Shown: positions 3,877-63,509 of the stretch, in pieces
Layout of the letters: every line of letters begins with the position of its first letter
Position numbering within the stretch: position 1 is the first letter of the stretch
Source of the DNA: Rhizophagus irregularis
Lineage: Eukaryota > Glomeromycota > Glomeromycetes > Glomerales > Glomeraceae
DNA: 64,000 nt
Assembly: GCF_026210795.1 (NCBI RefSeq)
Contig: NC_089455.1
Span: forward strand, 2,170,001-2,234,000
Direction: 5' to 3'
Program-made: the position numbers and the translations under genes
The notes under the pieces: generated by a model
The model's input: only the letters and a program-made list of their open reading frames with translations
What the model was told of the DNA's origin: nothing
Databases searched by the model: none

Positions 3877-4032
3877 TATACATGTCACCCAAATTATTTT
3901 GGACTGCCATAATTATAAGTAAAATCCCAAATTCAATTATGGCATCCCAAATTATTTTGGCACTTTACATAGTAAATTACATATAAATCAAATGAATTAT
4001 GGCATCCCAAAATAATTTGGGCAGCATGTATA
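3877..4032. mobile_element. 156-bp hAT-type MITE (TATACATG family), copy 1
   Basis: The element starts TATACATGTCACCC and ends GGGCAGCATGTATA. It is flanked by a perfect 8-bp direct repeat, atctaaaa (3869-3876 and 4033-4040), the size typical of hAT insertions. Internally CCCAAATTATTTTGG is repeated in both orientations. It is nearly identical to the copy at 43,862-44,038. It shares its outer ends with the larger hAT element at 55,164-59,001, which could have mobilised it. Confidence 0.85.
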
Positions 4033-5531: not shown

Positions 5532-6224
5532 TTATAAGTTTCTAATTGGAAACTTAGCTCGATAAAATTCTACCCATAAGGAATCACCAGGACCCAAAGT
5601 GCCACTTTGAACATTATAATTAGCAAGAATGCCAACCCTCTCACTTTTCGGTAAAACAGCAGTAGTAATTAAACCATCATCACCAAGAGGTGGTAAAATT
5701 TTTGGTATATTAGGAAAAATTTGACATAAAGCATCACAAACTTTTACTATCATTTCTTTTTGTTCATCAGTAAAATCCAAGTGAGGGTATAGTTTATTTT
5801 TTCCAGGCTCTCTGCTCTTAGTAGATTCTCTATTTCGATCATTTTTAGATTGATCAACGGGATTCTGTAAAAATATCCCAATTGAAGGATTGTTCCATCC
5901 TTTTGCATGATATGCCATTTTTTCTAAATCCAAAATTTGATACACGCTTCCATCCCCATCTATCAATATATGTCCTGAAATTCCTCTTTGGCATAATGTA
6001 CGAAAACAATGTTTTACTGATGCACATACGTCCCAATGTAATACTATACCGTTTATTCCATTTCCACTTGGAACTCCACGAACTCCATAGTTGTCTTCCC
6101 AATGTTCAGCAAATGAATATCCTCTTTGTTCGTCTTTATAATCAATTACGGAAAATGGAACGGTATATGGTACGTCGTTAAAATAAAAAGTACCTTGTTC
6201 TTGTCGTTTTTGTTGTTCTGTCAT
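5532..6224 (-). CDS. N-acetylmuramoyl-L-alanine amidase / PGRP-fold protein, copy 1
   Basis: Single-exon protein of 230 aa with an amidase_2/peptidoglycan-recognition fold. Seen: IVLHWDVCAS (first zinc-ligand His, about residue 63), GHILIDGDGSVYQILD (the family's H...I..DG..YQ strand), YHAKGWNNPSIGIFLQNP, and a C-terminal GPGDSLW. In the family the second zinc His lies in a GH/AH motif before this; here it reads LANYN with Asn at about residue 202, so the zinc site is probably impaired. A longer start at 6242 is possible. I chose 6224 because the same sequence around the start (CATAACTAT) is at the start of the second copy. No signal peptide is evident. It is divergent from the kinase-like gene at 6,600. 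The family cleaves peptidoglycan or binds it; here a binding role, or no enzymatic activity, is inferred. Confidence 0.8.
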   Translation of the reverse strand: MTEQQKRQEQGTFYFNDVPYTVPFSVIDYKDEQRGYSFAEHWEDNYGVRGVPSGNGINGIVLHWDVCASVKHCFRTLCQRGISGHILIDGDGSVYQILDLEKMAYHAKGWNNPSIGIFLQNPVDQSKNDRNRESTKSREPGKNKLYPHLDFTDEQKEMIVKVCDALCQIFPNIPKILPPLGDDGLITTAVLPKSERVGILANYNVQSGTLGPGDSLWVEFYRAKFPIRNL

Positions 6225-6599
6225 AACTATATTGAAAATCATATGTTACAGACTTGGAAATATTTCTCATGCCTATTTATAGATATTGACATATTGTATA
6301 TAAGATATTCAATTTTGTTTTCTAACTTAACATACGGTATACACGTTACACAAGTTATAATCCTTGAAAAATGCCAAGATTGTTATATAATCAAGTATCA
6401 GCCAAAAATGGTAAAGTTAATAATCGCCGGAGTTTCCAATTAATCATATTATCGTATGAAATTGCCTTTTTTGTTCGATACTCCGAATGTATTTCATCCT
6501 CCGGAATTTATCTAAATATATTCAATCATTAGTAAAATCTGCTTAATTAAATTTTATATAAACAAGAAAAAAATAATTTTGAAGAATCGAGTTGTAGAG
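6225..6599. promoter_or_regulatory. Shared divergent intergenic region, amidase 1 / kinase 2
   Basis: A 375-bp region between two head-to-head start codons must hold both promoters. It is AT-rich, with no clear TATA box or named operator. The same gene arrangement recurs at 16,910-17,568, but the intergenic sequence there is clearly different and longer. Confidence 0.4.
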
Positions 6600-12705: not shown

Positions 12706-12780
12706 AATTCGATTTTACTATCATTAGAATCCTCTCATCGAGACGAATCTAATGATATAAATTTTATTAAAATCGAATCA
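12706..12780. repeat. Palindromic hairpin repeat (family P), copy 1
   Basis: The centre is CTCTCATCGAGACGA, flanked by TCATTAGAAT and ATCTAATGA and then by inverted CGATTTTA / TAAAATCG. Same design as copies at 20,360, 26,800, 28,791, 33,031, 50,911 and 52,625. Confidence 0.65.
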
Positions 12781-12954
12781 CTGGTTGTGTTAAATACAGG
12801 AGTATGTAGAATAACAAAAATTTGAAAATATTCCTATAATATGCAACTTTTGAAAAATTTTAATACAGTATTGTTCAGGATCCTATATAAATACATAATT
12901 ATTTATACTATACATAATTAGTATAAATATTATTGACTAATCATAAGCAGAACC

Positions 12955-16228: not shown

Positions 16229-16909
16229 TTATAAGTTTCTAATTGGAAAATTAGCTCGATAAAATTCTACCCATAAGGAATCACCAGGACCCAAAGTGCC
16301 ACTTTGAACATTATAATTAGCAAGAATGCCAACCCTCTCACTTTTTGGTAAAACAGCAGTAGTAATTAAATCATCATCACTAAGAGGAGGCAAGATTTTT
16401 GGTAGATTAGGAAAAATTTTACATAAGACATCACAAACTTTTACTATCATTTCTTTTTGTTCATCAGTAAAATCCAAATGAGGGTGTAATTTATTGTTTC
16501 CAGGCTCTCTACTTTCAGTAATATTTCTATTACGATCATTATTTGGTGGGTCAACGGGGTTCTGTAACATTATACCAATTGAAGTTTGATTCCAACCCTT
16601 TGCATGATATGCCAATTTTGCTAAATCTAATATTTGGTACACGCTTCCATCCCCATCTATCATTATATGTGCCGAAACTCCTCTTTGACATAATACACGA
16701 AAACAATCTCTTGCTGATGCACATACGTCCCAATGTAATACTATGCCATTTACTCCATTTCCACTTGGATCTTCACGAATTCCATAATTATCTTTCCAGC
16801 GCGTAGTAAATGAATATCCTCTTTGTTCATCTTTATAATCAATTACGGAAAATGGAACAGAATGTGGTACGTCGTTAACAAAAAAAGTACCTTGTCGTGC
16901 TTTGTTCAT
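16229..16909 (-). CDS. N-acetylmuramoyl-L-alanine amidase / PGRP-fold protein, copy 2
   Basis: Single exon, 226 aa, start ATG at 16909 in the same sequence context as copy 1. Seen: IVLHWDVCAS (zinc His ~59), AHIMIDGDGSVYQILD, YHAKGWNQTSIGIMLQNPVD and a GPGDSLW C-terminus. As in copy 1, the expected second zinc His is Asn (LANYN, ~198), so the loss predates this duplication or is shared by descent. The first half differs from copy 1 more than the last third, which is almost identical. Divergently paired with the kinase pseudogene at 17,569. Likely cytosolic; no signal peptide or membrane segment is visible. Whether it binds bacterial wall fragments is inference. Confidence 0.8.
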   Translation of the reverse strand: MNKARQGTFFVNDVPHSVPFSVIDYKDEQRGYSFTTRWKDNYGIREDPSGNGVNGIVLHWDVCASARDCFRVLCQRGVSAHIMIDGDGSVYQILDLAKLAYHAKGWNQTSIGIMLQNPVDPPNNDRNRNITESREPGNNKLHPHLDFTDEQKEMIVKVCDVLCKIFPNLPKILPPLSDDDLITTAVLPKSERVGILANYNVQSGTLGPGDSLWVEFYRANFPIRNL

Positions 16910-17568
16910 AACTATTATAGACCCGATGAAAATTTTTTACGGCTATTTAAAAAGTAGTGATGGCTTAATTTCTGTTTTTTAACTTTAAATATATACATTA
17001 TGCCGATCAAATTTTTATATCCTTTTTCTGGTTGATAACAGATAACAATACTTGTTATATAACAAGCGAAAAATTTCTTTTTTTAGGACCATTATAGGCA
17101 AATCGCGATAAAACTGGACCTTCAATGAACCGGGTTTGATGTTATTTCTTCTGAAACAAAGTCTATCATTTTAAAACAATCGCGAATTTATTGGTAAAAT
17201 CGTGATATTTTATATCGGATTTGATTCCATATCAGTTATATCGACCGAAAATAATTAATTTCTACCGGAATTAACGGTTAACATTTTTTTCTTTTTAGTT
17301 TAACCTTTAAATCAAAGTTTAAGTATAGCTTATTTTATTGTAAATCTTGATACTCAGATTCTTACATAATTTTCATATAAGTATAAAAAGATTATTTTTG
17401 ATATATCAATCCGACTTATCTGTGTAATTGACGTTGGTAAGAATTTCTTTATAGAACATGTCTTGTCTAACTTCCGAATTTATTTGGAAAATATATAAAT
17501 TATCTATCTTCTTTTATCAAAATTTATTTACAAATAAAAAATTTTCTTTTAAAAGAATTGTAGAAACA
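16910..17568. promoter_or_regulatory. Divergent intergenic region, amidase 2 / kinase pseudogene
   Basis: 659 bp between the head-to-head genes. No clear box or repeat is seen. Weakly GC-richer blocks at 17,080-17,280 have no counterpart in the shorter region at 6,225-6,599. Confidence 0.35.
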
Positions 17569-23156: not shown

Positions 23157-23456
23157 AGGACCCCGGATATCTCCAAAACAGGTCATAAGTCACACTTTCG
23201 GGCAGATTGGCCCATTTTTACTATTTTTTCAAGAAAAATGTTTTTGTAAATATCTCGGCATCCAGTGGTCCAATTTTGATAAACTTTTTTTTAAATTGTA
23301 GAGCTAAATGAGGGCTACAAAATAAAAAAACGTTCATTAAAATTGAATTACTGGATGCTGAGATATTTACAAAAAACGATTTTTTGAGTTTCAGCAAAAA
23401 GGGGTGTTTTTGGCCAAAAGTCCATTATGACCTTTATATTAGATATCCGGGGTCCT
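23157..23456. mobile_element. 300-bp hAT-type MITE with AGGACCCC ends
   Basis: Ends AGGACCCCGGATATCT and, inverted, AGATATCCGGGGTCCT, flanked by a perfect 8-bp duplication ctttattt (23149-23156 and 23457-23464). The interior holds another inverted pair built on TATCTCGGCATCCAGTGGTC and ACTGGATGCTGAGATA, the arms of palindrome family P. A related, shorter element is at 49,299-49,524, and an end fragment is at ~10,045. Confidence 0.85.
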
Positions 23457-25918: not shown

Positions 25919-26160
25919 TAAGGTTGCTTGTCTAAACCTCTTCGAAATCCTACGATTAGTTTCATCAAAATTTTACTAGATTTATTATAATTTTGGCAGA
26001 GTTTCAGCAGTTTCGGCATTTATAATAAGTTTCGGTAGTTTCATTTTTCTCCAAAGTTTCGCCAGTTTTTTAATATAACTTTAATATAGTTTTGGCAGAA
26101 TTTTGCTTTTTGGTGAAACGCCATCTTGCCTAAACCTTTAGGTTTCAGCAAGCAACCTTA
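25919..26160 (+). mobile_element. hAT-type MITE (TAAGGTTGC family), copy B
   Basis: TAAGGTTGCTTGTC ... CAAGCAACCTTA with a perfect 8-bp duplication ataattat (25911-25918 and 26161-26168). Confidence 0.85.
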
Positions 26161-26630: not shown

Positions 26631-27165
26631 ACAGGTTGAAAAGTGAAAAATCAGGCATCAATCAGTCACCAATCGGCCACCAATCAGGTACCTGATTGGT
26701 GACCGATTGGTGACTGATTGGCATTTTCGCCAAATACCGTCACCAATCAGGCAGTTTGCTAACTTTTGATCCAGTGATCAGAAAAAGATGAAATATAGCT
26801 CATTGGAATCGTCTCAACAAGACGAATCTAATGGTAGTAAAAACGCATTTCTAGGATTAATACTTGATGAGAAATTAAGTAAAATATAAAAATGAAAATG
26901 TATCATTTATATTTTATTTAATTTTTTATTAACTATTAATCCTAGAGATGCGATTTTACTACCATTAGATTTGTCTTGTTGAGACGATTCCAATGAGCTA
27001 TATTTTATCTTTTTCTGATCACTGGATCAAAAGTTAGCAAACTGCCTGATTGGTGACGGTATTTGGCGAAAATGCCAATCAGGCACCAATCAGGCACCAA
27101 TCAGTCACCAACCAGCTACCTGATTGGTGACTGATTGGTGCCTGATTTTTCACTTTTCGACCTGT
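26631..27165. mobile_element. 535-bp foldback element
   Basis: Two inverted arms of about 240 bp (starting ACAGGTTGAAAAGTGAAAAA) around a ~50-bp AT-rich centre, flanked by a 5-bp direct repeat gtatc (26626-26630 and 27166-27170). Each outer arm carries clustered ATCAGTCACCAATC / GATTGGTGACTGATTGG words, many of them CCAAT, and each inner arm carries a palindrome P copy (GAATCGTCTCAACAAGACGA at ~26,807 and its inverse at ~26,965). No coding capacity. Confidence 0.8.
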
Positions 27166-28103: not shown

Positions 28104-28347
28104 TAAGGTTGCTTGCTAAAACCTAGGGGTTTAGGCAAGATGGCATTTTGCCGAAAAGTGAAATTCTGCCAAAACTATATTAATGTTATATTAAAAAACT
28201 GGCAAAACTTTGGAGAAAGGCGAAACTGCCAAAACTTATTATAAATGCCGAAACTGCTGAAACTCTGCCGAAACTATAATAAATCTATAGTAAAATTTTG
28301 ACAAAACTAATCGTAGGATTTTGAAGAGGTTTAGACAAGCAACCTTA
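28104..28347 (-). mobile_element. hAT-type MITE (TAAGGTTGC family), copy C
   Basis: TAAGGTTGCTTGCTAAAACC ... CAAGCAACCTTA with a perfect 8-bp duplication tttctaaa (28096-28103 and 28348-28355). Reverse orientation, like copy A. Confidence 0.85.
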
Positions 28348-28683: not shown

Positions 28684-28790
28684 CTATTATAACATAAGGT
28701 AGTAATTATCAATTACAGCATAGCGGACATGCTTATATCACCATGCCGATCATTTTGCTGATCATATATATTTTTCAAACTTCAATAAAC

Positions 28791-28909
28791 AATATCTCGA
28801 AATTCAGTCATCCAATTTTGATAAAGTTGTGCTCATTGGATTCGCCTCATCGAGACGAGTTAAATGGTGGTATTTTCATTAATTTTGGATCACTAGATGC
28901 CAAGATATT
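28791..28909. repeat. Palindrome family P, copy in the 4.5-kb transposon's left end
   Basis: Arms AATATCTCGAAATTCAGTCA and GGATCACTAGATGCCAAGAT (inverted relation), centre ATTCGCCTCATCGAGACGAG. A partner copy at 33,031-33,148 near the other end is more decayed on one arm. Confidence 0.6.
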
Positions 28910-29112
28910 CACGATTTTGTATTTCTATTATGAATTATCACATTATATAAAATCGGCCGATCTGGCTTGGCTACACCGATATACATTCGGCCGGGCTATA
29001 AAAATTGATAAATTTAAGTTTTTTAACGATATAGAATAAAATAATAAACCTTTTTCATTACTAAAATTGATATTTATTAATTTTATATATAAATTTTTAG
29101 TATTTAATTAGG

Positions 29113-29458
29113 AAATTTACTATTTTTAGACTTTAAAACTTTGTACAAAGCCACAGACTTTTAAGCCAACTCTGAAATTTTCATCATATATTTGTTAACC
29201 ATTTAGAAATATATGGTGAAAAAATGGCATCCTAATTCGCTTGAAACCAAAAGTTACCTATATACTATATTTAGTCAATTTTAATAAATTTGCAATTTTT
29301 AGACTTCAAAGTTTTGTACAAAGCCACAGACTTTTAAGCCAACTTTGAAATTTTCATTATATATTTGTTAACCATTTAGAAATATATGGTAAAAAAATGG
29401 CATCCTAATTCGCTTGAAACCAAAACTTACTTATATGTTATATTTAGTCAATTTTAAG
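29113..29458 (+). repeat. Two tandem units of 173 bp
   Basis: Exact period of 173 bp measured at TTTTTAGACTT (29123 and 29296) and at CCACAGACTTTTAAGCC (29151 and 29324). The copies are ~92 per cent alike. Located upstream of the transposon gene; could be its promoter or 5' UTR region. Confidence 0.8.
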
Positions 29459-29695
29459 TAATATATGATTATTTGATTTTAAAACTTTATATATTTTCTA
29501 AAATTTATTTTTGTTTACTATTTTAAAAATATAAGATAAAATTAATTATTTTAAAAGTTTTCTATGTGTTATATTTAATCAGTTTTTTTATAAATAGACA
29601 AAAAAATTGCTTTAGCAAAATTAGAAAATCCAATCCAATTTAAAATAAAAAAACAATATTTTTTTAAATACTTTCATAATTTTTAATTATAAAAA

Positions 29696-32600
29696 ATGGA
29701 TAACACTTCTACTTTTTCAAATATTTGCAATTTTGATTCCATTGAATGTAATGGAAGAATAAAGCCAATCACTTATAACACTAAAATACCAAAATCTACT
29801 GAATTAATTATTTCAGTTGGAATGTATTTATGCCAAATACATTACAATCAATTTATTTTAAATGAAACTAGAAATATTAATTATAATAAGAGTTGTGAGC
29901 ATCCAAAACATGATGAATATAAAAATCAATCAAAAAATACAAAAAAAAATCAAGCAAACTTAATCTTAAAAAGGTTCCAAAAAGATTAATTGAAGTTTTA
30001 GAATTAAATGAATCTTCAGAAATTTGTAGTATGTGTAGAAATAAAACTGATAAAGATTCTGAATATTTACAAAATGAAAAATACAAAGCACCTATTCCAA
30101 TTAAAAAAAACAATTTAAATGATAATGATAATTTACAAGATGAATCAATAGAAACTATACAAGATGAACTAATAGAGGCTATACAAGATGAATTAATAGA
30201 AGTTATACAAAATGAATCAATAGAAGTTATACAAAATGAATCAATAGAAACTAAACAAATAAAAACTTGTCAACATCCAAAACATGATGAATACTTAAAT
30301 CAATCAAAAAATACAAGCGGCAATTTAGTCTTCAAAAAGTTCCAACAAGATTAATTAAAGTATTAGAATTAGATGAACTTGCAATGATTTGCAGTATGTG
30401 TAAAAAAAAAACTGATAAAGATTCTCAATATTTACAAACTGAAGAATATAAAGCACCAATTTCTAGAAAAAATAATAATGACAATATATCAAAAATAGGA
30501 AATCATACTTATTTATTTAGAAAAGATATCTTATATACTGGAGAAGAATTACAACAATTTGAATCAGATTATCAAGAAATTATGACACAATTAAAAATTT
30601 CAAGTGAAATTAAATTAAGTAGTAAAATAATAAAAATGTCTAATATTCTTTATAATAATCAACATAGATTAAATCTTAAACCTATTTATGATCCAATAGC
30701 TTTTAAAACTATGTTAGAAACAGCTGATAAAGATTTAATTGGATTTTTTGATGAATTATATGCTGGAACTAATCCTAATACTAAATCTGAAACAACAAAT
30801 AATAACAACAAAAAAAATTAGTTTCTTTATGTTATTTTTTAGCTAGCATTAATAATAAATATATTAATGGAATTAAAGTTGATATTGGATCATACTTGGA
30901 AACTTCTGGAGCTTCTTCTTCTTCTATTGATACATTGGCAAATATAGGAGTTTCAGTAACAAGAAAAACAGTAAATCGTAAAAAAAATTTTATTTCAAAT
31001 GAACACCAACAAACTGTAGATAATTATTGTTTACAAAATATAGAAAATATGTTTATTCTTAATATAGATGATTACCATAATATTCATAGGCGTAATCAAC
31101 CAACATTGTTACAAACTCACAATATTTATCATTTTGTAACAATATTATTGAATACAAATACTAAAATTCCAAAAATACCATTTTATTCATTAAATAATTT
31201 TTCAATACATAATCCTAAAGGAATTGATTCTGGATTAATTATTAATAACATTAAAAATAATTTTATGAATCAATTAGGTAAAAGTTATTATATGCAAAAA
31301 GAATTATGGAAAAATTTTTTAATTGAAGATTCTTATGAAAATAGAGTTGAACTACTTAATATTCATAATTATGATGGTAGAATTCAAAATTACCATGAAT
31401 TAAGATCAATGTCTAATAGCAAATTAGTAGACTTTATTTTGCATCCTTTACACAGTCTTAAGGATTATATTGAATGTTTAGATTATGTATTTAAAGCATT
31501 TGAAAGATTAGAAAATATTGAAGAAAATTATTTAAATAATTTTATCATTCCTGTAATTGCTGATTGGTACAGGACAAGTAAATATAAGAAGAGCTATAAC
31601 ACTTAGAATTAAGAAAGGCATTAATTCTGGAGTTCCAGAGCAAGTGTTAAATTTAATTCCTATGATAGGTCCACTTCATGTCTCTTTAAACAGCAGAGAA
31701 ATACTATTTCAAACATATCATTTCTTTTTTGAGATGCTATATCATAACTTATTTGGAGATAAAAAAATATTATCTCAAAAACCAAAACAAACAGTAATCA
31801 ATCTTATTTTACATTTAACTTATCATGGATGGAAAAATATTCGTGATATTGTTACAAAAAGATTTGGAAATTTAAAAGATGCAGAATATCAAATGATGAT
31901 AGATTTATTAGATAATTCCATTCCACTTACTTTGGATATATATGCAATACTTTTTAGAAGTGGATTTTTTGAAGGATATTTAGAAAGTACTGTAAAAATT
32001 TGGATATTATTTCAAAGATTGAGAAGACATAATTATAATAAAGCACCACTTATGTTTTTAAGTGATGTATTTTATTGGACTTCAAAAAATCATCCAATAA
32101 TTAATATTTTAAAAAATAATTTACCAATTTTTAATGATTATTTTGTTGAAAATTTTCATAGCTCTTTAAGGCATCAAACAGCAGAATCAAATTCAGAGTT
32201 ACAAATTATACAAAAAGCAAAAATTATTGATGCTGAAAGAAATAATAATCCTTTTAAAAATTCTTTTGTTAATTTGAGAAATCCAGCTAAGTCTCAAATT
32301 AAAGAATTAAAATCTTTAGAAAAAAAGGTTTCATTATTTTTATTCTCAATATTTGATAAGATTCATCAGAATATAGGAAATACAAAACAAATTAATAATG
32401 ATAGATATCCAAAATTTTATCTTCCAAGTTTTGATATTGAAGTGGATGTAAAGTACTTCTTTAGGCTGGAATACGAAAAAATGCAAATGAGATGATAAAT
32501 TTTGTGATGCAAATAATTGTTTATTATCAAATAGTATAGATTTATCTAATGGAATTGTTTTACTTTGTGACACAGTTTTCATAAAGAATGTTTAAGTACT

Positions 32601-32855
32601 TTATATGATGATAAATGTAATTTTTGTTTTGATTATTTATCATCTGGAATTGAGAAAAATATTAAGAGTTTGGATCAAAGATTGTCGACATCATTAAAAG
32701 AAAATGAAATCCCTTTATTTGAAAAGGAAAATAATAATGATGATGAAAATGATGAAGAAGAGAATATTGAAAACATATTAGAAAGAACAGAATGTGATGT
32801 AGAAAATCAATATGATATAATGTATCAACAATGGTTAAATTATAATGATATATAA
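29696..32855 (+). pseudogene. Transposon-encoded protein, frameshifted, with Cys-rich N-terminus and RING-like C-terminus
   Basis: Read as one long gene across several frames. N-terminal half: two tandem copies of a module CxHPKHDEYxNQSKNT ... RLIxVLEL ... ICSMC-K/NKTDKDSxYLQ (29,897-30,100 and 30,272-30,470), linked by five 24-bp repeats. Both modules need the same frame change between NT and RLI. Central part (30,896-32,495): PVIADW then, after what looks like a 1-nt insertion near 31,566, GQVNIRRAITL, then LIPMIGPLHVSLNSRE and YFVENFHSSLRHQTAESNSE, a conserved-looking core. C-terminal part (32,493-32,700): after another shift, a Cys/His set ending FHKECL...CNFC, RING-like, and an acidic tail to the stop at 32855. 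I recall similar proteins as abundant hypothetical proteins in Rhizophagus. A KDZ-type transposase is possible but unproven. Confidence 0.55.
30136..30255 (+). repeat. Five 24-bp in-frame tandem repeats
   Basis: Units of the type CAAGATGAATCAATAGAA + 6 nt, encoding an 8-residue IQ(D/N)E(S/L)IE(V/T) repeat. It separates the two Cys-rich modules. Confidence 0.85.
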
Positions 32856-33030
32856 TTAGTATTAATATAATAATTTTTATTAAATTGCAAAAGTCACTTT
32901 ATTGAAATTTTTTAATAATAAAAATTAATATTTTATTTTGATTAATGAAAATTAATGAATTATAATTGTATAATTACTCCAACTAATAAGATAAATTATA
33001 TAATAAAATAATTAGAAGATTCCGAATGCA

Positions 33031-33148
33031 AATATCTCAAGATATATAACTCCAAATTTTGTAAAATAAAGATGATCGGATTCATCAAGTCCTAAGCTTT
33101 CTAACAAGCTAAAAATCATAAAATTCTGATCACTGGATGCTGAGATAA
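33031..33148. repeat. Palindrome family P, decayed copy in right end of transposon
   Basis: Right arm TGATCACTGGATGCTGAGAT is clear. The left arm (AATATCTCAAGATATA) and the centre (GATCGGATTCATCAAG) are diverged. Confidence 0.45.
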
Positions 33149-33427
33149 CTGAGATTAACTTTAAAAAAAATCTAATATTAAATGTGATATGATAAAATAG
33201 TGATCAACAAATGATCGGCAAATGATCGGCAAAATTGTGATAAAATAGGGATGTCCGCTATGCTATCAATTACATACTACATCTTTAAGTATTTCTATCA
33301 AATTCACTATTTTCTTTATTTAATAATTTAAGTTATTATACTGTTTCTTTATTTTGTTAGCAGAAATTAGAAATCTGCTTAATAGAATAGCTAATTAACA
33401 GAATAACTGGACTATTCGGTGAACTAT

Positions 33428-34576: not shown

Positions 34577-35278
34577 TTAATCTCTAATAATATAGTTAGC
34601 TTTATAAAATTCCACCCATAAAGAATCACCAGGACCATATCTATCACGTTGAGCATTATAATGAGCAAGAATACCAATTCTTTGTTCTATTGGTAAAGTA
34701 GCAGTAGTAATCAAATTGTCTTCACCAAGAGGAGGTAAAATTCTTGGTATACTGGTAAATATTTTACATAAATCATCACAAACTTTTACCACCGTTTCTT
34801 TTTGTTCATCAGTAAAATCCAGATGAGAATATAGTATATTGCTACCGGGTTCTCTACTCTCAACAATGTCTCTATTACGATCATTATTTGGTGGGTCAAC
34901 AGGATTCTGTAACATTATACCAATTGAAGTTTGATTCCAATCTTTTGCATGAAATGCCGATTTTGCTAAATCCAATATTTGATATACAGTTCCATCCCCA
35001 TCTATCATTATATGTGCTGATAATCCTCTTTGACACAACAAACGAAAACAATCTCTTACTGAACCACATACATCCCAATGTAATACTATACAATTTACTT
35101 TTTTGTTGTTTCGAACTCCATAATTAGTTATCAAATTTGCAGAACTTTCGAATGAATATCCTCTTTCATCATGGTCATGATTAATTACGGGAAAAGAAAC
35201 ATAATATTGTTTACCATCAATAAAAAAATAACCTTTAGCATTTTCATCATTTTCATTTAATATTTGTTGTACTTGCAT
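34577..35278 (-). CDS. N-acetylmuramoyl-L-alanine amidase / PGRP-fold protein, copy 3
   Basis: Single exon, 233 aa. Seen: IVLHWDVCGS (zinc His 67), AHIMIDGDGTVYQILD (~88-103), FHAKDWNQTSIGIMLQNPVD, and LAHYNAQRDRYGPGDSLW with His 206 and Asp 218. Unlike copies 1 and 2, it keeps the C-terminal His, so all expected zinc-site positions of the amidase fold are present and hydrolysis of peptidoglycan is plausible. The N-terminus (MQVQQILNENDENAKGYFF) is longer and different. It has no kinase partner; its upstream neighbour is EFM4 on the same strand. No signal peptide is evident. Origin from bacteria by transfer is a possibility I cannot test here. Confidence 0.8.
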   Translation of the reverse strand: MQVQQILNENDENAKGYFFIDGKQYYVSFPVINHDHDERGYSFESSANLITNYGVRNNKKVNCIVLHWDVCGSVRDCFRLLCQRGLSAHIMIDGDGTVYQILDLAKSAFHAKDWNQTSIGIMLQNPVDPPNNDRNRDIVESREPGSNILYSHLDFTDEQKETVVKVCDDLCKIFTSIPRILPPLGEDNLITTATLPIEQRIGILAHYNAQRDRYGPGDSLWVEFYKANYIIRD

Positions 35279-35400
35279 TTTTATAGTTCAAAAGAAAAGT
35301 TATAAATTGGTTTTTTTTGCGAATTAAATTCTCTCTCCTTTGAATTACTGTTTAATATATAAATCGCTTTAATATTTCCTTATTAACACCTTTTTGTAAC

Positions 35401-52392: not shown

Positions 52393-52485
52393 ATCTAACC
52401 ACCATTCGTCTTATCATTATGAGACGATCCCAATGAGCTATGGTGCATCTTTTTACAATCATTGGATGCCAAGTTATTACGTAAA
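52393..52485. repeat. Right half of a palindrome P copy split by the SINE
   Basis: Continues the arm that stops at 51,151 (ATATCTTGGCATCCAGTGAT at ~51,121): GATCTAACCACCATTCGTC, TTATGAGACGATCCCAATG, then the inverse arm CATTGGATGCCAAGTTATTA. Confidence 0.7.
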
Positions 52486-52624
52486 ACATAATATTTTTAA
52501 GTTTTAACAATTTCGATATATCGAAACTATTTCAGCATTTCAACAAATCAGAAAGCCAATGTCGAAATGTTGAAATAGTTTTAACAATTTTGACATGCCG
52601 AAACTCCCTAATTTTGACAAGCAA

Positions 52625-52972
52625 CTTTAGTCTCATCAAGACAAATTGAATGGTAATAAGTTCATCTCTCTAAGATCAATATTGGCAGAGTTATTACACA
52701 AAAACCATTAATATTTTTTAATTTTAGATATTAATCTAGTGATTGGATTTTGATGTATTTTATATCATTAAAACTGTCTCATCAAGACGAATTAAATGGC
52801 AGTAAGATCATTTTTTTACAATCAATATTGGCAGAGTTACGATACAATAAAGTTTTAAGTATAATTTTAACTAAAATTATACAAATATAAGAAATTTTTT
52901 ATATAGTCACATCTCTTTATAATCGCCAGATATAGACTGTTCCAAATGTGTAACTATAAAGAGAGTTGACTG
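52625..52972 (-). repeat. CAGTCAACTCT element, reverse copy, with two palindrome-P units
   Basis: The right end at 52,972 (inverted CAGTCAACTCTC, TA beyond) matches 20,200-20,440 read on the other strand. Two successive TCTCATCAAGAC(G/A)AATT centres (~52,633 and ~52,778), each followed by AATCAATATTGGCAGAGTTA. Confidence 0.6.
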
Positions 52973-54340: not shown

Positions 54341-54694
54341 CACTAGTGTGCGAAACACGAATCAAGTGTTTATCATACTTTCTGGTGATCTACATAAAAA
54401 TTTCCTTTTTTGGAATTTTGTGTAACGAATTTTCATTTTTACTGAGAATCAAAATTTCCTTTTTTGGGTTATGTAACGTTACTCCAGTATCCAAAAAGGG
54501 AAATTCAGGTAAATTTTGGCTGGAATTATAAATTTGGCCGAAATTATAGGGCGCGACATATAATATGTGACAAATAAGGTTTTTCTTACTGAAAAAATTC
54601 AAGTCCCTAGAATAAATAGTAAAAATGGAAAACTAGAAGGGTGTGACATGGGTGACAAATTAAAGTTACGTGACCCGTGTTTCGCACACTAGTG
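54341..54694. mobile_element. 354-bp TA-flanked MITE with CACTAGTGTGCGAAACACG ends
   Basis: CACTAGTGTGCGAAACACG and its exact inverse at the ends, TA outside (54339-54340 and 54695-54696). The interior has TTTCCTTTTTTGG twice and GGCTGGAATTATAAATTTGG. Confidence 0.8.
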
Positions 54695-55888
54695 TATTTT
54701 AAGAAATTTTCAATTATAAAATGCAATAAAAATAATAAAAATATTAATTAACAATACAATGCTAATACTAATATATCAAGAAAATCACTTTAAATTTAAA
54801 GAAACTTAATTCCCTAATGCTTTAATGATTTGTAATGCTATTCATATTTTTCTTATCAGCCTTGTATTTCTCACAACTTCGAATATTATGTCTCTTATCC
54901 AAACAATAACTACACTTTTTAGACAAAGCATTTTTAGTAGAATTTTCTTCTATTGATGATTTATACCTTTTTGGAGGTTTTCCTTTCAGTCTATGATATT
55001 CTGGATTAGAAATATTGTAATTGTTATTGGTATCCAAATTGGCCAAAGGTATCCAGCTATTTGATTGAGTTTCTATAGATAAATTTTGAGTTTCTTCTAT
55101 ACCAAATCCAGTACTATACTGATATTTTATATTGAATTGTATAAGCATCCCAATAAATTCTGTTATACATGTTGCCGAAACTTTTTTTCAATTTTGGCCG
55201 CATTTCGGCTCCAAGATATAGCTACTTGTAGATATATCAAATATCAATAAATTTTTTTAAACCTCAAATAATTTGGGCCAGATTTGCAGCAACTTTTAGC
55301 AGACTTCAGAAAATTTCGGTAATCTGTAATAATTTCGAATCGGACTTTAAAGTTTTGGCCATATATTAAATATAGGTTGTTCGAAATTCCGGAGCCCTGC
55401 CGAAATTATGTAAGTTGGTCAAAATTCCTCAAAAGTTCTTTCATAGGTTCTTGAATAGGATTAACCTATTTGAAGCCTAATTTCAGCCAGATCTATGAAA
55501 TCAGATGATTTTGCTTTGAAGAGTTTGTCATGTGGGCGAAATCAAAATATTTCATCATGTGACGAAACCGAAATATATTTGGCATTCCATTTTAAATTTC
55601 AAAATTCTGAATATTTCGTCATATGACGAAATTAATAATATAGGTACAATGAAGATCTTTAGATGTTAGATCTAATTTGATCGATTATATAGCAGTTACA
55701 CGAAGAAAAATAAAAAAAACCTCCTGTCCTAAGTTCGTTTACCTTGTCAATAGTTATGTAATGATAAATTAGTAATCACTTTAACACGATCATTTTATTC
55801 ATTTAAGTATTTTAACACAATTCCCCCCCTAAATTTCGTCAGCTATATATTGGTAATGTCGCCATTGTCGCATTATTTGTGTACTCCC

Positions 55889-56132
55889 TAAAGTTGCTTG
55901 TCTAAACCTCTTCAAAATCCTACGATTAGTTTCATCAAAATTTTACTATAGATTTATTATAGTTTCAGCAGAGTTTCAGCAGTTTCGGCATTTATAATAA
56001 GTTTTGGCAGTTTCGCCTTTCTCCAAAGTTTTGCCAGTTTTTTAATATAACTTTAATATAGTTTCGGCAGAATTTTGCTTTTCAGCGAAACGCTATCTTG
56101 TCTAAACCCCTAGGTTTCGGCAAGCAACCTTA
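55889..56132 (+). mobile_element. hAT-type MITE (TAAGGTTGC family), copy E
   Basis: TAAAGTTGCTTGTC ... CAAGCAACCTTA flanked by gtactccc and gtactcct (55881-55888 and 56133-56140; one mismatch). Sits ~50 bp upstream of the transposase start in hAT element 2. Confidence 0.85.
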
Positions 56133-56184
56133 GTACTCCTATTTTAATTTTTTGTATTTTCGCGTTATTGTAATAAAAATTAAA

Positions 56185-58646
56185 ATGAACTCTCAGCAAA
56201 AAGAAAAAAAGCCCAGTGGTCATCCTCAGAATGAAGTGTGGAAGCATTTTGAAAAAAAACCTATCAAGTCTGCCGGTCATTTTTCAGCTAAATGTAATTA
56301 TTGTAAAACTTTTTGGGCTCGTGGTCACCACAACAATTAGAAGAACATTTAACTAATAACTGCAAAGAGTATCCAGAATTAGTCTATGCATTTTATTTGG
56401 GTGTAGTTTCTTCACGAGATTTTGGAAGTGAAGATGCCTCTATTCCTTCACCAGAAAATAATAAAAAAAGAAAAATTCAGGTGGAACAACGAGAGTTAAC
56501 TGATTGGTTCGAGTCTGCCAAAATAATTCCTCAAAAAGAAGCTTCCATCACTCGGGCTCTTGTGTGCACATTTACGTGTTGTAGGATATCATTTTCAATT
56601 ATTGAAACCCCATTTTTTATTGAATTTCTTCATGAAATGAGACCAGGAATTGCTTAGTGGTAGATTTTTAAATCAAGAAACGGCAAGAATTAATAAAAAG
56701 GTTAAGAAAATTATCGAAGATTCTGAGAATCTAACGCTTGGTAAGCTTATTTTTTAAATATATTTTTATTGTTTTAATAATTTATAATTTATTAATTATT
56801 CATTTAATTCTTTAACTCTATAAAGCGATTGATGGATGGACTAGTCTGAGTGGTGCTTCCATTTATAATTACATAATTTTAACACCTGATCGTGAACAAT
56901 ATCTTTACTCCCTTAATGATTATTCAAGTGATCATCATACGGAAGAGTTTCTACCAAGCGAGATTACTAATATTATTGGAAAAATTGGTTCCAAAAAAAT
57001 AATTGCATTAGTTACTGATAATGCTGCAAATTGTGTTAAAGCACGAGAAATAGTTACAAGCCAATTTTCCAATATTATTGATCTTCGATATATCGCACAT
57101 TTTATAAATTTAATAACTAAACAAATAATGGGTATGCTTTAAGAATATTAATATATTATGATTTTTATTTAATTAATTCTTATACCAAGTATTTATTAAT
57201 TTTTTAGGGCATGATATGGCTAAACAAACAATTAAAAGTTGCAATCGAATTATATCATTCTTTAAACGGTCTCATATAGTAGGAAAATTATTGGCTGATG
57301 CTGCTACTACGTTACAAATTGAAGGTGGAGGTCTTAAAACTTATTCTGAAACAAGGTGGACATCTATGTATGAAGCTGCAAATTCAGTTTCACGTTTACG
57401 AATTGCATTAGAACATGTAAGTCTATTTATTTTCAACTTTATCAATTATAATTGCTTAAATTTAAAAATAATTAATAAATATTATATTTACAGGTATTGA
57501 TGAATAATCCTGATGAGATTACAAATAAATCAGTTAAAAAAAGTATTAAAAGCTCAGAATTTTTTGTGAATGTTAACAAGTTAACCAAAGTCCTAAAGCT
57601 CATTAAAACCGCAATCACCTTACTTGAAAGTGCAAGTACAAATCTTGCCGATTGTTTTATTCAATTGATTTTACTAGCGAATGCTATTAAAAAATTACCA
57701 TCTCAAGGAATGGTAGGATTTCATCAACATTGTATCGAGTCATTTAATAAATATTGGGATAAGTTTGATCCAAATATATATATCTTATTGTATTTTTTAC
57801 ATCCTAATTATCAAGGTTAGTAAATTTATTATTTTCAACTGAAGTACTAAACGAATTTTCATTAATTAAATTACTAACAAATTATTTATTAATTTTTTTC
57901 TAATAGGACAAGGATTAAAAACAGAATATTGGAAAATTATAACCACTACTGCAGGTCAAATTTGGCGAAATAATGGTGGTGATAAAAAGTCATGTAACCA
58001 TCTTTTAGCACAAATCTGCAATTATGAGTTGAGACGTAGTCCGTATAATCAAGATTTTGATAACAGTCTTGAAACACCAATAAGGTGGTATTCAATCAAA
58101 AACAAATATGATTATCTTAAAGATTTAGCAATAATGATATTTTCTATTACTCCACATATTGCAAGATGCGAGAGGATTTTTTCTACTTTTGGTTGATTAT
58201 ATGGCAAGAGAAGGCAACGTTTGGATCTTTCAACAATTGAGTCAATGGCAAAAATTCGTTCATATTATTTGTCTAATATGAAAAATGAGCTTACTTCTAC
58301 TAGTCAACAATATACAAATGAAGAATTATACGAAATGATTAATAATTCAACATTTTTACAATTTGAAGAAGAGGATGACGAGGTTGATAATAGGATAAGA
58401 TCACCTACTTTAGAAATTCCTAATCATGAAGTTCGGGTTTTAATTATTGAGAATTATTTTGATTTGAAAGATACAGTAAAAGGGTTAAATAACAATGATA
58501 AAAATTCAGATGATAGTGATGTTGAAAGTGATAGTGATAGCGATGTTGGTAGTGACGTTGATAGTGAGAATTTAAATGATAGTGCTAATAATAATAGTGA
58601 AAATGAAACAGAAAGTGATTATGATGTTGAAGAACTAGTTCAATAA
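56185..58646 (+). pseudogene. hAT-family BED zinc-finger transposase, three lesions
   Basis: Starts ATG at 56185 (MNSQQKEKKPSG). BED finger: CNYCKTFWARG, a 1-nt shift at ~56,323, then LEEHLTNNC. A second shift lies at ~56,650. Introns with GT-AG at ~56,742-56,826, 57,132-57,207, 57,417-57,493 and 57,815-57,906. DDE core: AIDGWTSLSG (~56,828), ALVTDNAANC (~57,012), RYIAHFINLI, and IEGGGLKTYSETRWTSMYEA (~57,322). The dimerisation domain SITPHIARCERIFSTFG is followed by TGA at ~58,196 in place of the usual Trp, then LYGKRRQRLDLSTI. Acidic Asp/Ser C-tail. Few lesions, so it was probably active until fairly recently. Confidence 0.85.
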
Positions 58647-59324
58647 CATTTGTTAGATGACGATTTAATTGGAAATACTTTGTAACTACTAAATAGATAA
58701 TTTTTTTACCACTTTCAAATTGTGTATTTTAATAAAATAGTTTTATATCGATATTGCAAATTGTAATACATTAATAAAATAAATGATTGGTATATAAAAA
58801 TAAAGTAAATGACTAATTTAGTTAGTTTAACATAATTATTATATTTCGTCATTTCGGATATTAAATCAGATTTCGGAAAGGGTTTTGGATTTGGAATAAG
58901 TTTAGGATTTTAGATAAAAATCCGAAATATTTTGGATTATAAAAAACAATTTCGCCCAGCATCATTAGCAAAATAGCCAAAATATTTTGGCAACATGTAT
59001 AAATTCTGTTATAGCACCTTCTGATACTGCGATTTGTACACTTGTTTTTGCTAATGACATTGCAGTACCAAATTGAACCTTTTTATTAACTTTTTCTCTA
59101 ATAGCTGGTATAATAACATTAGTAGGTCTGATTTGTTCAATATATTGCAAAGAAATATTTGCACTAGTTTTCATTTTCTGAGTAATCACAACATTTGTAT
59201 CAGATGAAATTACTTCAAACTAGCAATTATTAATAAATATAATGTGAAATACTGCCTTGTTTGACTAAATAAGAACGCGATACTAATGCTTACATAGTAT
59301 ACCTTTATTTATAATACTCATGCA

Positions 59325-59932: not shown

Positions 59933-62053
59933 AACTCCCTTATCGATGCAAAATTAACACATAAAAAATAACTTACTTGATTAATTTCTATTAGAGTTTG
60001 GTATAATAAAAACTATTTCATCTGTGTACGTTGAAGAGACAATGGAATAAGTGATAAATGAGCTTGTAAAATATTATCAATTTCTTTAAATATCGTATTA
60101 AAAGTTGAAGGAAGTCCTACTGATGGGTTTAAACCATAATAGTCTTTAATTCGGATATATTGTAATTCTTTTTTCAATTCACTTTCAACTACTTTTACTA
60201 AATCCTTTAGTAAAGTACCACGATCTAAATGTTTTTTCAGTACACCATTAATAGATTCAACACGTTGTGTTGACTTCGCCCCTGCTGTAAATACTTTTGC
60301 AATGGAATATCTAGCCCAAGAATTACGACTAGGGTAAAGTTTATTTTCAAGATAAGAACGATATGGTTCATATTTTGAAAGTATATCATTAAATCTCAAA
60401 TCAAATTGAGTTTGAGTGTAACTATTTCTCATATGATAAAAATCTCCAATAAAATTTTTGACCATATCACCATGAAGCTTACATCTGGCTTTCTTTTTTA
60501 CATCTCCATAATATGATAAATACATAATAGATGTTGGGTTTGTGGATATACTATTTGAACAGCTGCAATCATTGCTAGATCTCCATTTGTATATAATACT
60601 ATAGGTTGAGTTTGTGTTACTTCAAGTGTGCATCGTAAGATTCAGATATAATCAGATGAGTTTCATATTTAGTTAAAGTCGAGAAGAATTCTTGTTTTAA
60701 AATCACGATCAACACCAACAAATAAACTAAGAGCCATTTCATAATAATTGGTTTTAGCTGTGTTGTCATGAATAACTACATCATGAAATTGTAGCCAGAG
60801 TTTATTATGTTGTTGATTGGTTATCCAAAAGAGACCTGTAAGTTCATTAGACTGACTTTCTAAACGTGAAATGACCACAAAATTGGGATCATTATCATGC
60901 TGTCTTAAAAGATATGAAAATAATGTAGATGCATCGAACTCATCATGAGTTTGTACACCTCGAAATTTGTTAATAGCATTATATAAATTTTTATTACAAA
61001 TACGATGTTGAGAAAATTCTTTAAGAAGGAGATCATATTGTTGATCAGCTATTAATTGACCATTAAGTGTATAGTGTTCAATTTTATCTAAAATTGATTG
61101 TGAAAGACGGAAATTCCTTAGTGCTAATTCTATAGTTTTGGTATCACATTGATGATTATGAATGTTAACAAACTTAGTAAGACGTATTTCTCCTGTTTGC
61201 TTTCCACGATAAAAGCTAACATGTCATGGGCAGCCCATTTTACCAGAAGTACTATCATGATGTAAACTAATATTTTCCACCTTTTTTGGTTTATTAACAC
61301 CAAATTTCCAATATTTAAAAATACGACGCTGAACTATAGATTTATCAATAGTATTAAGGTCTAAACGATATTTACTTACAACAAAACTATGGTGTTTTAC
61401 ATACATGTTAACTCTATCTTGAACCATATTCCAATCATTAAAAGAATCACTAACACGAAATTCTGATGGGTCTGATGAATCAGAATATATATTGTCATCA
61501 TCATTCGCTAGCTCATCATTTTCAGCAGACAATATTTGTTTCTCTGAGTTTTCGTTAACTTTATTAATGTGAGAAATGAGTGGCTCCATTAAATAATGTT
61601 GAATTTCGTCTATATCTAAAAAAAAAAATCCTAATATTAACATTTGAAACATAAAAATAATGGTTAACTTTCTTGGAAATATAACCTACCTTTAGAGAGA
61701 AATGTTGTTTTGTTAAGGTCCTTTCATTTACCGTAAGAAGAAAAAAAAGTCTAATTGTCCTGATTTCTAATTAATAATCAAATTAGTTACACGATCAGTA
61801 TATACACAAATTACATGAACCAGCCACCAGTGAAAATCACCACCAGTTATACATAGTAATTTTCTTATTATAATTGTTTTATTTGCAATATAATTGGAAA
61901 ATATAATCAATTATTACATTTAAAAAATTAAAATAAAATATTATAACTATTAAATATAATAGGTTGATTATAATTATACTAATTATACTTTTATATTATT
62001 ACTAATTACATTATATTGTACTATATTAATTTACTATATATCCTATTTTTTCA

Positions 62054-62878
62054 TTAATTATTTGATTTCTTAACTAATAAATTTGTATAAAAATCTGAAA
62101 TATTCTGAGAAGACCATCCTTTTTTTAAAAGTTGGTATTCAATTATTTCTCTAACTTCTTTTTTACCTTCTTCTCTACCTTCTTCTATAGCAGTTATAAT
62201 TTCATCATTACGATCTAAAATTGCCATCATAGTATTTTCATAATTTTTAACATCTGCTAAATTCCAATTATATATTTCTAGAATTTTATAAGCTGCTTGA
62301 ATTTCATTAGGTGCATTTTTTGGAAGTTCATTTTTATTGCCAGCTTCTTTTAATAAATATATCCAATAATCCTCAGGAGTTTTAAGTTGTTTATTACATT
62401 TATCAAATTTTGGAAGTTCAATAAATGCATATGAAATATTTGGTAAAAAACATTTATTTGTTTTCTCTTCACAATTGGAATAATAGCTAATATATTTAAT
62501 TTCTTTAGGAAAAATTTTATGATTTAAAATAGTTAATAGAATTTTTGGTTTTAGTTCTAAATAATCTACATTTTGAAGTTGATTAGAATAAGTACTATGT
62601 GAAATATAATGCTCCAACCTCTGAATAAATATGCTGAATCTTTTGTTTTGCATTTCAACAATATATCTATATCCACTTTTATCATAGCAAGAAACATTTA
62701 AAATAGATTTTGTAGAATTTTGAGGTAATAATTTAACTTCTTCAATTATATTATTACCTTTTCGTCTTAATATTGAGTTTAAAAAACTTAATAAAAGTGG
62801 TTTATTTTGTTCTATAGCAAAAATCTTTCTGAAAGCTACATCATTATTAGGATTAAAAAAACGTCTATAAACAAACAT
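62054..62878 (-). CDS. Rpn-family PD-(D/E)XK nuclease/putative transposase
   Basis: Intact single-exon protein of 274 aa, start ATG at 62878. Recognisable as a PDDEXK_2 / Rpn-like protein: NPNNDVAFRKIFAIEQNKPL (residues ~9-28), LLSFLNSILRRKG, a core ILNVSCYDKSG...YIVEMQNKR (~59-80), and a C-terminus EGREEGKKEVREIIEYQLLK ending in a short helical tail. The ExQ catalytic pair is present (Glu 75, Gln 77). The position usually filled by Asp in the LDV strand is Asn 61, which may weaken or abolish cleavage. In bacteria the family includes recombination-promoting nucleases. Its presence in a eukaryote with AT-rich local codon use suggests past transfer and adaptation, or long residence; inference only. 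It is just outside the MULE's right end. Codon use does not stand out from its neighbours. Confidence 0.8.
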   Translation of the reverse strand: MFVYRRFFNPNNDVAFRKIFAIEQNKPLLLSFLNSILRRKGNNIIEEVKLLPQNSTKSILNVSCYDKSGYRYIVEMQNKRFSIFIQRLEHYISHSTYSNQLQNVDYLELKPKILLTILNHKIFPKEIKYISYYSNCEEKTNKCFLPNISYAFIELPKFDKCNKQLKTPEDYWIYLLKEAGNKNELPKNAPNEIQAAYKILEIYNWNLADVKNYENTMMAILDRNDEIITAIEEGREEGKKEVREIIEYQLLKKGWSSQNISDFYTNLLVKKSNN

Positions 62879-63509
62879 TAAATTTCTTAATTGATCAAAT
62901 CTTGTTTTACAAATTTTTTGTTTAGTCAGTGGAAGTATTGCTATTTTGAATATTTTGTTTGAGAGAAAGAATTTTGTTAAAGTATTAAAAACAGACGTAC
63001 TGCAGTTTAATGAAAAGATTAAATAAAAAAATAAAAAAAAAAGATGAAAAAAAAATTTACTATTTAATATTTAATAATACCTAAAAAGGAAAGTAATTAT
63101 TATGCATATGATTAAAATATCTTATTTAGGGGTAAGGTAAATATTATTATTAAAGCAATATTAGCTAATATATGTCACAACCTTTATATAATGCTTTATT
63201 ATACACTTATTTTCATATTTATATAACTGGATTAGATCAAATATACTTACTTTTAATAACAATATTTTCAGGATTTTTAAAATTTTTTTATTTATTTACT
63301 TTATAATTTCAGATATAAATGAAGTTTAAATAATGCTTATAAAATAGAATAAAAATAACTACTATATAGTTATTAGAATATTCTTTAAATATATTTAATG
63401 AATCAGTTTTTTATATAGTTGTATTTTATAAAATTTTTCTATATAATCATTATATAAAAAACCCTCTTTTTAATTACAGTATAATAATTATATTTTGGGG
63501 TTTTTATTA
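62879..63509. other. AT-rich spacer
   Basis: Promoter side of the Rpn-like gene, then AT-rich DNA. Nothing else recognised. Confidence 0.5.

Follow-up and report, generated by a model that had tools for sequence, protein, structure and literature searches.

Results and discussion

The 64,000-nucleotide stretch of contig NC_089455.1 analysed here (the window) contains, at 28717-33264, a 4,548-bp element bounded by perfect 14-bp terminal inverted repeats (TIRs) and a perfect 9-bp target site duplication (TSD). Inside it lies a decayed gene whose intact counterpart was found in a single related element, L001, on contig VBAS01000141.1. A preliminary description of this DNA had proposed a bounded transposon with such ends, and this was borne out: in an all-pairs scan this was the one place in the whole window where a perfect 14-bp TIR and a perfect 9-bp TSD occur together within 12 kb, and none of 100 dinucleotide shuffles held any such pair. 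The ends and the non-coding part of the element comprise the following features.

28708..28716, no strand: left TSD, ATCAATTAC, identical at 9/9 positions to 33265-33273
28717..28730, plus strand: left TIR, AGCATAGCGGACAT, a perfect inverted match to 33251-33264; the L001 counterpart is AACAGGGCGGACAT
28744..28767, plus strand: left subterminal iterons, TGCCGATCATTT and then TGCTGATCATAT (2 mismatches), putative transposase binding sites
29108..29453, plus strand: 173-bp tandem duplication, copies 92% alike, in the 5' non-coding part (repeat family D13)
33209..33231, minus strand: right subterminal iterons, two perfect copies of TGCCGATCATTT; 87 bp of the right end are 87% identical to L001
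33251..33264, minus strand: right TIR, ATGTCCGCTATGCT, a 14/14 inverted match to the left TIR
33265..33273, no strand: right TSD, ATCAATTAC, identical at 9/9 positions to the left TSD

The base before the left repeat is T and the base after the right one is A, so that two longer readings of the TSD are exact as well, one of 10 bp (TATCAATTAC) and one of 11 bp (TATCAATTACA, the TIR then being 13 bp). The 9-bp reading is preferred, since L001 retains the terminal A...T inside its own 14-bp TIR. With up to two mismatches allowed, TGCCGATCATTT occurs 17 times in the window against 5.25 expected (the maximum in 100 shuffles was 11), and 4 of the 17 occurrences are in the element ends.

Intact relative and selection on the protein

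L001 was the single locus returned by a scan of contigs from 84,980 bacterial and archaeal species, its best segment being 71% identical to the query. It lies on a contig of 4,276 bp with 24% GC in a Bacteroidetes metagenome-assembled genome (MAG). The element itself is 3,887 bp long and has perfect 14-bp TIRs, AACAGGGCGGACAT, at 120-133 and 3993-4006. Its sole long open reading frame (ORF) is intronless and has 930 codons, of which translation from the ATG gives 920 residues. The window protein aligns with it from the ATG to the end and is 70.5% identical (643 of 912 aligned codons). The TIRs of the two elements differ at three positions, and in each element every one of these is matched at its own opposite end. 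Both elements have the inner part of the TIR, GCGGACAT, in common, and both carry repeats of GCCGATCATTT no more than about 60 bp from each end.

The ratio of non-synonymous to synonymous change (dN/dS) between the window gene and L001 is 0.33 over 912 codons and 0.28 over core residues 249-780, so the transposon protein has been under purifying selection. Changes at the first, second and third codon positions number 188/126/268.

Five other contigs sampled from the MAG that holds L001 have 37-40% GC. This mismatch with the 24% of L001 disfavours a genuine bacterial home, and the contig is probably misbinned eukaryotic DNA.

Further relatives were sought in several collections. None was found among viral contigs, nor among phages and plasmids in a protein search with the read-through core of the window protein (P0001). 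Within the L001 assembly's own family, order and phylum (147, 396 and 395 genomes in overlapping draws, with expectation value (E) limits of 1e-3, 1e-5 and 1e-5) there was no relative beyond that assembly. One further candidate locus, L003 (E 9.5e-4), was dropped as a chance match; its ORFs look ordinary bacterial by eye, and tblastn with the intact 920-residue protein gives nothing better there than E 0.3. No element fitting the description was present among the literature matches listed, and neither a tRNA nor an Rfam match was found in the window.

Decay of the window gene

The gene was delimited by aligning it, with frameshifts allowed, to the intact protein of L001. It and the protein features it encodes are as follows.

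29696..32855, plus strand: decayed transposase gene
29726..29842, plus strand: N-terminal Cys/His module A (C-x6-C ... C-x2-H), seen in the translations and also in L001, putatively metal-binding
29907..30114, plus strand: Cys/His module B, copy 1 (CxxH...CxxC; repeat family D10)
30272..30479, plus strand: Cys/His module B, copy 2, an internal duplication; L001 has no second copy
31067..31072, plus strand: candidate first catalytic Asp, in NIDDYHNIH (D335 or D336 of L001), identical in both elements
31562..31564, plus strand: candidate second catalytic Asp, in PVIADW / DWPGQ (D498 of L001), with a frameshift directly after it
32148..32150, plus strand: candidate catalytic Glu, in DYFVENFHSSLR / VENFHSS (E693 of L001)
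32491..32630, plus strand: RING-like Cys/His cluster, split by the frameshift at 32569-32570

The ATG at 29696 aligns with that of L001. Six frame changes separate the window gene from an open frame (29939-29943, 30001-30005, 30810-30811, 31568-31571, 32460 and 32569-32570), one of them at the edge of a duplicated segment that the alignment skips. By hand count, 21 of the 22 stops in the alignment are inside this skipped segment and a single in-frame stop, near 32490, is outside it. As a result of the frameshifts the core peptide motifs fall in different frames: PVIADW is in frame 30806-31603, and GPLHVSLNSRE and YFVENFHSSLRHQ are in frame 31557-32492. All the core motifs listed in the preliminary description are therefore present, but they are spread over separate frames, and the decay of the gene had escaped that description. 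Since L001 is one continuous open frame, neither programmed frameshifting nor introns were accepted as explanations of the breaks.

It was considered whether the breaks are assembly errors in a copy that is in reality intact and active. Two of the six (29939-29943 and 30810-30811) are indeed within or next to long runs of A, only the one stop is outside the skipped segment, and the TIRs and TSD are perfect. The breaks at 31568-31571, 32460 and 32569-32570 are, however, outside A runs; elsewhere in the window the ORFs of three amidases and one PAS-domain ORF of 487 codons are open; and the copy has an internal duplication that L001 lacks. An artefact of assembly thus seems quite improbable, and the gene is taken to be broken. 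The window copy would therefore be mobile only if an intact copy supplied the enzyme, and the combination of a broken gene with perfect ends describes either a recently dead relic or a copy moved by the enzyme of an intact one.

Architecture of the encoded protein

The N-terminal residues of the L001 protein that make up the two types of module are C10, C17, C45 and H48, followed by C66, H69, C109 and C112. The duplicated Cys/His module reported earlier is real in the window copy, where the two module B copies are 75% alike, but it is single in L001. The copies are identical to each other at 185 of 241 positions and to the single L001 module at 197 of 248 and 195 of 242. As these values are similar, the duplication and the separation of the window element from L001 are of about the same age.

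At the other end of the protein the RING-like stretch is spread over frames 32491-32592 and 32571-32852. Several Pfam RING families match it, both in the read-through with X and in intact L001, with a best E of 0.0013 and all below the cut-off. The RING-like C-terminus of the preliminary description is thus present, at sub-threshold strength and divided between two frames.

In the central region the candidate catalytic residues are shared by both elements. When the 28 Asp residues of the core were ranked by the strand-like hydrophobic run before them, using crude textbook propensities, D498 ranked first, D336 fourth and D335 fifth. E693 is one of 22 consecutive residues that do not differ between the elements, GPLH is at L001 533 and in both elements, and the resulting D-D-E spacings are 163 and 195. 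By inspection, the order of elements (strand-D1, strand, strand, helix, strand-D2, helix, strand-GPLH, helical insert, helix-E) would be that of an RNase H transposase.

Taken with the ends, the duplicated target, the intact relative with matched ends and the selection on its protein, this arrangement makes it likely that the window element belongs to a family of class II (TIR) cut-and-paste DNA transposons with a DDE-type transposase, probably from an arbuscular mycorrhizal fungus.

Several results weigh against that reading. Identity of the D, D and E residues says little with only two sequences that are 72% alike. The structure prediction proposed as a check for an RNase H fold was run with AlphaFold on 550 and 234 residues, using two-row alignments; the mean predicted local distance difference test (pLDDT) scores were 32.7 and 34.8 and the expected RNase H strands did not appear, and both models are too low in confidence to interpret. 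Searches of the core against Pfam, NCBIfam and PHROGs, the Pfam scans covering six window reading-frame pieces, the read-through core P0001 and the intact L001 protein up to E 5-10, matched no transposase family and gave no support for a DDE fold, and a sequence search of the PDB with the core returned nothing up to E 10. The weak Pfam matches that single fragments did give were to HEPN_RiboL-PSP (E 0.00072; score 19.9 bits, cut-off 28.4), RRP7 (E 0.012) and CLASP_N (E 0.1); these are taken as chance because they are absent from the read-through core and the intact protein. Only two copies of the family were found, and the flanks of L001 carry no TSD, 4 of 9 bases agreeing there against 9 of 9 in the window, so that the duplication is present in one element and absent from the other, each having been seen with its two ends. 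The missing duplication speaks against the TSD rule, unless the flank has been rearranged or wrongly assembled.

In the left flank of L001 (1-119) a repeat of about 25-30 bp, AAATAAAAATCTTACCTGnTACAGCCC, was seen by eye twice, the second copy abutting the TIR. It could bear on the absent TSD.

The Pfam result agrees with the earlier statement that the encoded protein shows no MULE, hAT or Tc1 signature. It is weak evidence, because another gene of the window at 60016-61685 (minus strand, three broken ORFs), which we take to be MULE-like, is also below every Pfam cut-off; its best relevant match is the ZSWIM1/3 RNase H-like family (E 0.0089).

Placement among transposase superfamilies

The 9-bp duplication had been put forward as an argument against the groups that make 8 bp. 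It does differ from the 8 bp of hAT and KDZ, in one copy, but it singles out no new group: excerpts of PMC10045372 give TSDs of 4-10 bp for IS256/MuDR and of 9 or 10 bp for AcademH. That the family represents a new transposase superfamily is a tentative proposal, and we think it less probable than not.

Of the alternatives, the one that survives best is membership of a wider eukaryotic transposase group, which would be present in Pfam as the uncharacterised family DUF6589 (PF20231.3). The presumed likeness is one of motif order: a SIDTLANIGLSVS-like block before the core, D-D/N with RRxQ, a second D, G-x-x-H and E. Against this, DUF6589 is not among the families that hmmscan reports up to E 10 for the intact protein. 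A search of the L001 assembly with PF20231 gave no candidate, and as the same family was matched in none of 14 control genomes this search is uninformative. No papers were found pairing DUF6589 with transposase or with fungi. We regard this placement as rather doubtful.

A divergent Academ lineage near AcademH, lacking the helicase, is a still less likely placement. AcademH shares the 9-10 bp TSD, seen in one of the two copies here, and its known occurrence in Basidiomycota, Ascomycota and Mucoromycota (PMC10799480, in part) fits a fungal element. The helicase that defines AcademH was not matched in the six window pieces or in the intact L001 protein, the comparison being one of TSD length and helicase content.

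KDZ (Kyakuja-Dileera-Zisupton) elements are fungal DNA transposons with cysteine-rich parts, in which they resemble the window element. The hAT elements resemble it as eukaryotic TIR elements, and they have a large spacer between the second D and the E, as is likewise proposed here. Neither group was matched: the KDZ Pfam families gave nothing up to E 10 with the read-through core and the intact protein, and the hAT C-terminal dimerisation domain gave nothing up to E 10 with the intact protein. In addition both differ in TSD from the 9 bp of the one window copy, this being 8 bp for Zisupton and usually 8 bp for hAT, with 5-7 bp in some lineages (excerpt of PMC12730594).

A far-diverged MULE/MuDR element is less credible than the DUF6589 and Academ placements: its TSD range of 4-10 bp (PMC10045372, in part) includes 9 bp and it too has a motif containing H between the second D and the E proposed here, but GPLH begins with G in both elements and not with the C or D of C/DxxH, the MULE domain of Pfam was unmatched up to E 5-10 in the window pieces, the read-through and the intact protein, the C-terminus here is RING-like, and hhalign with two of the MULE-like gene's three pieces gave probabilities of 0.1% and 0.2%, in a comparison of single sequences with low power.

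Proposed mechanism

For the DDE-type transposon preferred here, the following course is proposed. An intact family member would encode one 920-residue protein, whose N-terminal Cys/His modules probably recognise the 14-bp ends together with the GCCGATCATTT iterons just inside them. The central domain (D335/336, D498 and E693) would fold like RNase H and excise the element, which would then be joined to target cuts staggered by 9 bp; repair of these by the host would leave the 9-bp TSD. The RING-like C-terminus may serve to keep subunits together or to make contact with proteins of the host.

Other features of the window

In the element nhmmer located two copies of a module, about 80-100 bp long, that has a CGTCTC..GAGACG-like near-palindrome.

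28825..28924, plus strand: copy of the module, also present at L001 599-699
33101..33164, plus strand: second, partial copy near the right end (E 7.7e-6)

The model was built from five copies, including that at 28825-28924, and copies outside it reach E 3.6e-20, a significance given without a shuffled control. Other copies in the window are at 52758-52863, 52612-52714, 26797-26894, 52403-52493 and 12715-12787, and on the minus strand at 20438-20334, 51017-50935 and 26999-26913. The near-palindrome is like CGTCTCATcGAGACGAA and is followed by TGATCACTGGATG at window 33127 and 50960 and at L001 660. The module is thus found in different repeats and also in L001, which comes from another genome, and it may be a regulatory or silencing signal shared by unrelated elements.

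The window has a low GC content of 25.5% and contains a kinase gene and many dispersed repeats, the features that suggest an arbuscular mycorrhizal fungus as the probable host. A looser scan, made without a shuffled control, showed four elements of 242-338 bp resembling miniature inverted-repeat transposable elements (25919-26160, 28104-28347, 23157-23456 and 54349-54686), all with perfect TIRs (11 bp or longer) and TSDs of 8 bp; two of them share the end TAAGGTTGCTTG. A 3,838-bp element at 55164-59001 has the TIR TATACATGTTGC and an 8-bp TSD, AATTCTGT, for which longer readings are possible. An ORF of 338 residues at 62057-63070 (minus strand) matches PDDEXK_2, the PD-(D/E)XK nuclease family transposase, with E 3.1e-33; this family is mainly bacterial, and here it is in a eukaryote-like window. 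Three ORFs of 235-237 codons, all on the minus strand (5535-6245, 16232-16936 and 34580-35287), match Amidase_2 (N-acetylmuramoyl-L-alanine amidase). The presence of three genes for peptidoglycan-cutting enzymes in a fungal-looking region possibly reflects a past transfer from bacteria.

Conclusions

About two-thirds of the transposable elements of R. irregularis were unclassified before the curation described in PMC11075540. According to the portion of that paper available, R. irregularis was screened with profiles for 19 named superfamilies of transposase, and Transib is reported as new to it, along with new families in known superfamilies; the window family was not seen named in that portion. 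With its defined ends and an intact 920-residue protein, the family provides a probe with which part of the unclassified elements of mycorrhizal fungi could be classified, and the same probe could test whether a further transposase superfamily exists. Should the family prove to belong to a known group, it would still add an intact reference copy.

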